From Vitis vinifera (Eukaryota > Streptophyta > Magnoliopsida > Vitales > Vitaceae), in contig NC_081807.1 in NCBI RefSeq assembly GCF_030704535.1, positions 7,528,001-7,592,000 on the forward strand: a stretch of 64,000 nt of DNA, read 5' to 3'. A program made the position numbers and the translations under genes. Each line of letters starts with the position of its first letter. Position 1 is the first letter of the stretch. Below are positions 42,971-45,900 of this stretch, piece by piece. The notes under the pieces are model-generated. The model worked only from the letters and a program-made list of their open reading frames with translations, searched no databases and was not told where the DNA came from.

Positions 42971-45900
42971 CGTCTTTGGGTTGCTCCTGCCTTTCAGTGT
43001 TTTCATTGCTGCTGCTGCAAAAGCTTGTGCTGCTTCTGCATCAGCTTCTGCTGCATCTGCTTCCCTTGCAGCCTCTTCAGCTTCTGCAAGGGCAGCTTCT
43101 GCCTCTGCAACTGCTCGAGCAGCAACTATAGCTGCTTCTTCCGCAGTCATACCCCTCATCTGGGCCAACTCAAAATCAACCTGGGCTTTAGTGAGAATAT
43201 GGATATCATCCTTGTCAACTTTGGGAGAAAACCCCTGTCTCCCCTCCAGGAATGGCATAGAAGAGTTTCTTCTTCTCTCAGAAAATGCTGGAGTATGTGC
43301 AATCCTGTACTTACGTTTCACCTGTAAGAAAGTCAGCAATGTCTAACATTATAGTCCAAGACCAGAAACAACTATATCAAATCAATTTCATCAACTGACC
43401 CATTTTCTGAACAAGCCACCTAATTTTCCAGGGTATTTAATACAGTCCCATATCGTTGTAAGGCACTGTTTTCCCAACCATGACACAGTTCTTCTGCAGT
43501 TTGCTTGAAATACTAATCTCATTTTTTTTTCCTTTTCTCTTGCAAAGAATCAAAATAAGTATCATAAATAGCCTACATATAAGAAAGATGAGACGTCCTT
43601 CCATGAGATAGAAAACTGCTAGAAAAGAACAACAATTGACAGCAAAAGAGAACTAGAACCTATACAATATATATCCTAGTAGGGTCAAGAGGAAAGATGA
43701 TGCTAACAAAGCACAAGAGGGTGTTGCTCTCCTCTCTAGGTGAGGCTATTGGCTTATAAGTACAAACCTCAATTGCCAATCCAGATGATTGTGATGATCA
43801 AGACAGAATGGTTTCAACTTGAGAATAAAGTTCCATCAGGGTACATATCTCACCATACAAAAACAATATATACAAGAAAATCCAATTTAGTTATATATCA
43901 CCAACTAAAAAACCATATATAAACCAAATTCTAGAAGTACCAGTGAATAACATAAAAAGTTGCTTGGTTTTCTGAGAAATTAAATGATCTTTACCCTCTA
44001 AAGAAATTTGATAATAAACTCTGTTTTTCCATTTTGATATGAAGTCCCAAAAAGACAAATCAAAGATACGAATACATGACTTTGATCAGAATCTGTATAT
44101 AGTTTGAGATGGTTGGGGGTTGCCCTGTATATAGTTTTTGTATAGTGGGGTGTAAGTCTTTGATCAGAATCTGTATTTTGAGGGAAGGACCTCTCACCCT
44201 TCTCTTGTACCTTTATTATTTATTAATATAATACATGTTTTGTATCTGATAAAAAAAAAAAAAAAAAAAAAAAACTAAAAGAGATAAAAATACATGACTG
44301 AGGTCGCAATAAGTACTTCTAAGGCCCCGGTCATTCATCACAAACTTTTGTCCGCTTAGGCGTATGACCTACTCCCCACAAGGAGGGTTCCCATATTTCT
44401 CCCAGTCGTCTTGGTGGAGAAAATATTGCTGGAAAACATCAAATGCTGTTTTATATATATCATAAAGTTAATACATTTTTTTTTTCAAAAATAATATAAG
44501 CACTACAAAAATTATCACATTTGAATAATCGCAATGAGAATACTATAATGAGATCGAATAATGGCACTCAAAACATTATAATGAGATTGAGAAAGTCAAT
44601 TTAATTGCCAAAGGTACAAACTTTCAAACTAGGAAGGGAAATAAGCCAAGCCAAGCCAAGTAGAGTCAAGTATTCTTATTTCATCTTGATTGGTTTTGTG
44701 CCAAACTTCACCAAGCATATTCCAGATTGGCTAGACATTTTTCCCCAAGCTCAAGTTTGATTCCAATCAACTCAGTGCATGAAAAAATGGTTCATACAAA
44801 GCAAAACCTGTGACAAATGACACATCCGCCAAAAGGATCAAAATCACACCAACCTTCACAGTTATTTGAACCATGATCTCCAAGTATAGAAGATAATTGA
44901 GAGAGGTAAGTATGGGGAAGAAGGAAACCAAACTCTTGTCTCTAAATCCTACAGGAAACTATCGGGCTAGGGAATGTAAGAGGATGAGGAAACCCTAAAA
45001 CCCTATGAGCCAAACATAGCATTTAAAGATAAAATTCCAAAACCAAATAACAAAACAAATAGGAAAGAACTGAGAGTAAGAGGAGGCGGCAAGAGAAAAT
45101 TACTAAAAAGGAAAGAAGAACAGAAGAGCACTTACCTGGTGGGATTCCTTCATCTTTCAACTCAAACAGTCAAGACAGAGTTGTCGTAACCCTACCTCTC
45201 TTTATATATCTCTCTCACATGCACTAGCACTAAAAACCTTTTGAATAAATGGACTCAACCAACCCATACAAGCCAACCAAGTGGGCCTTTCCTCACCAGC
45301 CAATTGAGCCTAGCCCAAAATATATCGGCTTGATTCACAAGTCAGCCTATGTTAGAGTGAACTCAACCAGATAAGGAAACAAGATTTTTATGGAGATTCA
45401 GAAATGGCCAGAGATGGTATGAACTGCTTAACAAGTCAAGCTGATTGCTTCAAAGTGGCTCATTATTACCATGGTCCCATATTTCAAAATCAACAGGTAT
45501 GTCGATGATCCAAAAGCATGAAGACATCAACAGGCATATTGAACAAAATTGAATAACAATATTGATTTGGAAAATGAAAGGAATTTGCAGCGGAACAAGG
45601 AAATCTCGAATGAAATTTTAGAAAGAGTTAAATTAGACAGAAATGCATGATTTAGGGTTAAAATTTTGTAAACAAAATTTTAGCTTAACTAAGTGGTGTA
45701 TATGGTGAAAAATGTATATTCCATTGGGTACATATTATGTATCTGCTTTGAGAGTCAACAAAAACACAAAAGCTTTTGAGCCAACAAAAACACAGAAGCT
45801 TGTTTTGCCATATGATTATATATTCATAAAATTTTGTTGGAGAATTCCTTCCTTTTTCAAGTCATTTGAAGAAGCTTCTTAACCTGAAGCATTGGAACAT

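Follow-up and report, generated by a model that had tools for sequence, protein, structure and literature searches.

A promoter-like element inside an intron of a grapevine TRB gene and the coiled-coil microprotein that it might specify

The stretch of DNA analyzed here, called the window, comprises 64,000 nucleotides of the grapevine genome (contig C3, positions 7,528,001-7,592,000); genome-wide searches covered 495.6 Mb in 21 contigs. The minus strand of the window carries a TRB gene with six coding exons, the borders of which were read from the sequence alone, encoding a protein of 300 amino acids. Pfam places a Myb domain at residues 5-56 and a Linker_histone domain at residues 124-181. 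As in other TRB or Single Myb Histone proteins, an N-terminal Myb domain is followed by a central H1-like domain and a C-terminal coiled coil, the latter being recognized here only as a predicted long helix. The coding exons and the intron of interest are the following:

56314..56463, minus strand: coding part of TRB exon 1, Myb domain (sequence reading and Pfam)
55926..56143, minus strand: TRB exon 2, end of the Myb domain (sequence reading)
51733..51817, minus strand: TRB exon 3, start of the H1-like domain (sequence reading)
46707..46790, minus strand: TRB exon 4, H1-like domain; missing from the putative short form (sequence reading)
43322..46706, minus strand (46706-43322 in the direction of the gene): fourth coding intron of TRB, 3,385 nt, preceding the coiled-coil exon (sequence reading)
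42971..43321, minus strand: TRB exon 5, last part of the H1-like region followed by the coiled coil; common to the putative short form (sequence, Pfam and structure model)
41523..41537, minus strand: last TRB coding exon, N G H P stop (sequence reading)

The intron between exons 3 and 4 contains a LINE-like fragment (zf-RVT, PF13966) at 49567-49983 of the window, and a 91-nt unit occurs in three diverged copies at 57111-57628, some 650-1170 bp ahead of the TRB start codon. Positions 44101-44274 of the window, within the 3,385-nt intron, are taken up by a repeat of roughly 170 bp that ends in poly-T and has at least 40 other rows in the genome search.

The 3,385-nt intron also contains a group of motifs which, read in the sense orientation of the gene, resemble a small promoter followed by a first exon. 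The exon was read from the sequence and the other features were found by a motif scan:

45653..45659, plus strand: further telo motif TAGGGTT, canonical, on the opposite strand and some 445 bp ahead of the TATA box
45312..45317, minus strand: site II motif TGGGCT
45282..45287, plus strand: site II motif TGGGCC (GGCCCA on the minus strand)
45200..45208, minus strand: TATA box TATATAAAG
45187..45194, minus strand: telomere-like TAGGGTTA, non-canonical, between the TATA box and the ATG
45136..45153, minus strand: ATGAAGGAATCCCACCAG, candidate coding portion of an alternative first exon, six codons including the ATG (M K E S H Q)
45130..45138, minus strand: donor CAGGTAAGT, consensus CAG/GTAAGT, the sole MAGGTAAGT of the window
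44990..45005, minus strand: tandem telo boxes TAGGGTTTTAGGGTTT, canonical, downstream of the donor

The original prediction held that this intron hides a second promoter for a TRB protein lacking the Myb domain. The site II motifs, the TATA box, the telomere-like motif, the six-codon exon and the CAG/GTAAGT donor are all present on the minus strand where it had put them, and the proposed splice from 45136 to 43321 does keep the frame when followed on the sequence. The ATG of the six-codon exon is the first one past the expected start site. With a frequency table taken from general knowledge, the donor at 45136 scores 12.3, compared with 6.8-9.0 for the five other donors of the TRB gene.

Short motifs of this kind are common, and it is quite possible, though short of probable, that they have lined up by chance in an AT-rich intron and have never been used as a promoter or an exon. 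Taken singly, TGGGCY was observed 39 times in the window (39.0 expected), TAGGGTT 10 times (9.5 expected), MAGGTAAGT once (1.1 expected) and TATATAAA 16 times (7.5 expected). Four of the ten TAGGGTT motifs fall within 669 bp at the TRB intron element. Clustering was judged by four criteria, with the numbers expected per 64 kb taken from two Markov models. By the tightest of these, which like the search patterns was set after the locus was known, the window has one place where 360 bp contain two site II motifs, two copies of TAGGGTT and a TATA box, compared with 0.0096-0.011 expected. For the 3,385-nt TRB intron the expectation is 0.0005-0.0006 such clusters, which argues against a chance assembly. 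A third-order Markov sequence of 40 Mb contained the cluster six times, and it was absent from 56,843 bp of comparison loci. By arithmetic from the Markov rate, about 74 chance clusters are predicted in 495.6 Mb, so that chance would produce many of them genome-wide even at this stringency.

With a single TAGGGTT in addition to the TATA box and two site II motifs within 360 bp there is one cluster in the window and 0.18-0.38 are expected; with two canonical telo 8-mers and two site II motifs in 360 bp there is one and 0.17-0.27 are expected. TeloSII promoters have been defined by a telo box and a site II motif within 1 kb (in the available part of PMC4660826). The TRB intron has such a pair, but this is a weak test: two site II motifs with one canonical telo 8-mer in 1 kb, the loosest of the four criteria, are found at three places in the window compared with 2.2-3.5 expected, just as chance assembly would have it. 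The excess of clusters is clear by the tightest criterion only, and by the three looser ones the window is ordinary or mildly rich.

The order of the motifs was followed through the whole genome. The arrangement GGCCCA N55-85 TATAWAW N3-33 TAGGGTT occurs at 23 places, compared with 3 for the reversed control, which again speaks against chance and supports the promoter half of the original prediction. At six of the 22 places other than the TRB intron, a match to a ribosomal protein, S4 or a snoRNA follows downstream on the same strand; Rfam was run on all 22 loci, and Pfam on 10 of them with one or two frames each. Two of these matches are a Ribosomal_L27e domain (L052, Pfam) and a peptide, which we take to be RPL41, behind a four-codon first exon (L060). 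Two are snoRNAs identified by Rfam, snoR109 at 149 nt (L065) and snoZ266 at 419 nt (L062) downstream. The other two are frames about 1.1 kb downstream with Pfam matches to Ribosomal_L1 (L059) and S4 (L061), whose link to the promoter is presumed. Like the TRB intron element, four of the 22 places have at least three telo motifs within 300 bp, and all four are among these six.

Four further places (L053, L056, L064 and L069) belong to one repeated, LTR-looking family, in which four pairs align with z of 17-46, and one (L070) has a gag stretch nearby (Pfam); the remaining 11 were assigned to none of these groups. The LTR-looking family has TGGGCT, a TATA box and TAGGGTT ordered as in ribosomal-gene promoters. 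Since it shares the motif order, the enrichment does not consist of gene promoters throughout. The site II-TATA-TAGGGTT order in the grapevine genome thus characterizes a repeat family as well as the starts of ribosomal or snoRNA genes.

Two other patterns were set aside. A TATA box and TAGGGTT alone, rejected as a promoter marker, occur at 518 places and at 1215 in the control, and many of the matches listed are alike. The order TGGGCT-TATA-TAGGGTT gives 161 places compared with 4, but most of the matches listed appear by eye to share one repeated sequence, that of the LTR-looking family, and for this reason the enrichment is not used as support.

The second half of the original prediction, the coupling of the promoter to the six-codon exon, fared differently. 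A scan for a TATA box (under two definitions), the first ATG past the expected start and an open phase-0 donor was calibrated on the rest of the window and on the 56,843 bp of 18 genome loci, which had been chosen for Myb genes and a repeat and are hence not random (L006 was excluded because it overlaps L003). With a donor score of at least 6, the TRB intron holds one match and 0.20-0.26 are expected per such intron, which is in keeping with a chance assembly; with a donor score of at least 9.5, the expectation is 0.014-0.028 per intron of this size. Genome-wide, TATAWAW N30-60 ATG N3-33 CAGGTAAGT gave 34 rows (26 + 8), several of which come from one TA run so that the distinct places are fewer, and the reversed control gave 33; there is no enrichment. 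The 30 loci extracted from these rows represent 18 distinct places, among which a telo motif occurs only in the TRB intron and a single site II motif in two others. The combination of TATA box, telo motif and donor is found at one place in the genome, the TRB intron, compared with seven matches in the control. The six-codon exon is tidy, and its coupling to the promoter has no support beyond consistency. The two genome-wide counts, neither of them above control, favor a chance assembly.

Taken together, the motifs and their order tentatively point to a cryptic or weak TeloSII-type Pol II promoter-like element, which lies in a TRB intron in the sense direction and which, if it fires, would give rise to the mRNA of a coiled-coil microprotein. 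The order of site II, TATA box and telo motif is the same as in TeloSII promoters of ribosomal-protein and snoRNA genes (available parts of PMC3022908 and PMC4660826), and four Arabidopsis introns have yielded unannotated transcripts in a search for pairs of a telo box with a site II or TEF motif (PMC3022908, in the part available). The element differs from TeloSII genes in that no ribosomal-protein or snoRNA product was found for it and in that it sits inside a TRB intron. The kind and position of its telo boxes are also different. Among the canonical 8-base telo boxes enumerated in the available part of PMC3022908, the copy in the tandem TAGGGTTTTAGGGTTT is present and TAGGGTTA is absent. 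No canonical telo box occurs in the promoter or the near-start 5' leader of the TRB intron element, where the canonical boxes, unlike those of TeloSII promoters, either follow the ATG or lie far upstream.

With two site II and three telo motifs (two of which form one tandem) within 300 bp of the TATA box, and a fourth telo motif at 45653, the segment might instead be an intronic regulatory site. TRB and TCP proteins would then bind the candidate telo and site II motifs, either feeding back on TRB or recruiting chromatin complexes. This is unlikely, because the order and spacing of the motifs relative to the TATA box and the ATG better match a promoter.

The promoter-like element could also be the decayed remnant of an inserted promoter, derived from the start of a former ribosomal-protein or snoRNA gene or from an old retrotransposon LTR, an origin to which only a small probability is given. 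Its putative six-codon first exon can be compared to the four-codon first exon of the RPL41-like gene at L060, and a short first exon with telo boxes in the next intron is reminiscent of ribosomal-protein gene starts. The motif order of the element recurs in the LTR-looking family. A local alignment of the segment with L061 gave z of 6.1, and 5.3 in a second run. For the same 450 bp, four other scorings gave z of 1.6-4.8, and longer flanks 0.8-2.1; moreover, 11 of 247 promoter pairs compared reach z of at least 4, with values up to 13. Because the score depends on the scoring and other promoter pairs reach high values as well, no homology to L061 is demonstrated; a common origin with that gene start was rejected, and the similarity is taken as a likeness of layout. 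Against the four LTR-looking loci the segment scored z of -0.9 to 2.9; one of them, L056, gave 2.8, and 3.95 in a second run. A genome search with the segment matched only the segment itself, which does not prove that it is rare.

The closest TRB paralogue (contig C7, L075 1-1100) has an intron at the same place, of 456 nt compared with 3,385 nt, in which no TATA box, telo or site II motif was found. The element is therefore not common to the duplicate, which is what chance assembly would lead one to expect.

Other products of the intron were looked for, and none that would betray a former gene start emerged. Rfam at E up to 10 gave two poor matches in the intron, neither of them a snoRNA (for H/ACA RNAs this covers the families in Rfam), and a simple C/D snoRNA scan gave no candidate, with 0.64 expected per strand. 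There is no tRNA in the intron, the only above-threshold Rfam families of the window being tRNAs at 288-8417. A hidden protein gene was rejected on the 10 of 46 intron-region frames that were compared with Pfam, where the best E of 0.078 is below the cut-off of that family.

If the promoter-like element is active, RNA would start near 45175 and translation at the ATG that opens the six codons. The consensus donor at 45136 would then be joined to 43321, the acceptor of the main transcript. The probability that transcription initiates at the intronic element falls a little short of even. Given initiation, this splice is highly probable, and a short mRNA is a likely outcome in view of the consensus donor and the acceptor that the main transcript already uses. 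Such an mRNA would encode a protein of 127 amino acids containing the TRB coiled coil without the Myb and H1 domains.

The frame of 127 amino acids is open and joined in frame to the host TRB; it is slightly longer than the approximately 123 residues first calculated. The expected absence of the Myb domain holds, and so does the presence of the predicted coiled coil. Of the H1-like domain, the end of which had also been assigned to the product, hardly anything remains: the part common to the short and the full protein begins at residue 180, leaving almost nothing of the Pfam H1 match at 124-181. Pfam finds no match in the 127-residue product at E up to 1. In a model of exon 5 predicted from the single sequence (mean pLDDT 71.9), helices span residues 45-55 and 60-112, and the fold prediction contributes only a long helix.

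In Arabidopsis TRB proteins, dimerization is assigned to the H1/5-like domain (PMC10167121, available part). The suggestion that the short form dimerizes with full TRB and acts as its antagonist is weak, because the product lacks nearly all of this domain. According to the accessible text of PMC12713088, the coiled coil of Arabidopsis TRB binds ZDP2, and TRB1 from which Myb and GH1 are both missing no longer binds DNA in vitro. Since a partner of the coiled coil is reported, titration of partners is a better version of the antagonist idea. The 127-residue protein would act, if at all, by occupying the coiled-coil partners of full TRB and not through H1 dimerization, and may at best be regarded as a decoy for these partners. 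Translation and any function of the short form are improbable on present evidence. It would be more speculative still, and is very improbable, that full TRB, together with TCP factors, drives its own internal promoter and that the microprotein closes a feedback loop by taking up the coiled-coil partners.

Microproteins that arise from downstream starts are known for Arabidopsis AFP1 and SUVR5 (PMC9252474, part available). In both cases, as in the putative TRB short form, the result is a C-terminal piece of a multidomain regulator. The starts in AFP1 and SUVR5 have CAGE and 5'-RACE support, whereas the TRB short form, reduced to the coiled coil out of the three parts of a TRB protein, is deduced from DNA and matches no Pfam family. 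Among the best matches listed in a literature search, which lay mostly outside subscription papers, no internal-promoter TRB isoform was found. The word "isoform" is absent from the available portions of PMC10167121, PMC13132431 and PMC12616469, and the isoforms in the available portion of PMC4924339 are those of TERT and TIN2. Truncated TRB copies are described as possible pseudogenes or annotation errors (PMC12616469, in the same portion).

Should the start site prove real, a regulator linked to telomeres and Polycomb would possess a built-in short version that cannot attach to DNA, and work on TRB dosage would need to take this form into account. If it proves otherwise, the locus still illustrates how promoter-like a plant intron can look.

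Two further observations concern the surroundings. A stretch of low folding energy at 45601-45740 on the plus strand (z -4.0) is the lowest of 108 intron windows on both strands, each compared with 25 shuffles, and has no match in an Rfam scan. At the other end of the window, positions 288-8417 of the minus strand contain seven tRNA-Pro genes in tandem, spaced by about 0.65-1.65 kb. Their anticodons are AGG, CGG and, five times, TGG, and the 145-nt stretches surrounding them are 62-86% alike.
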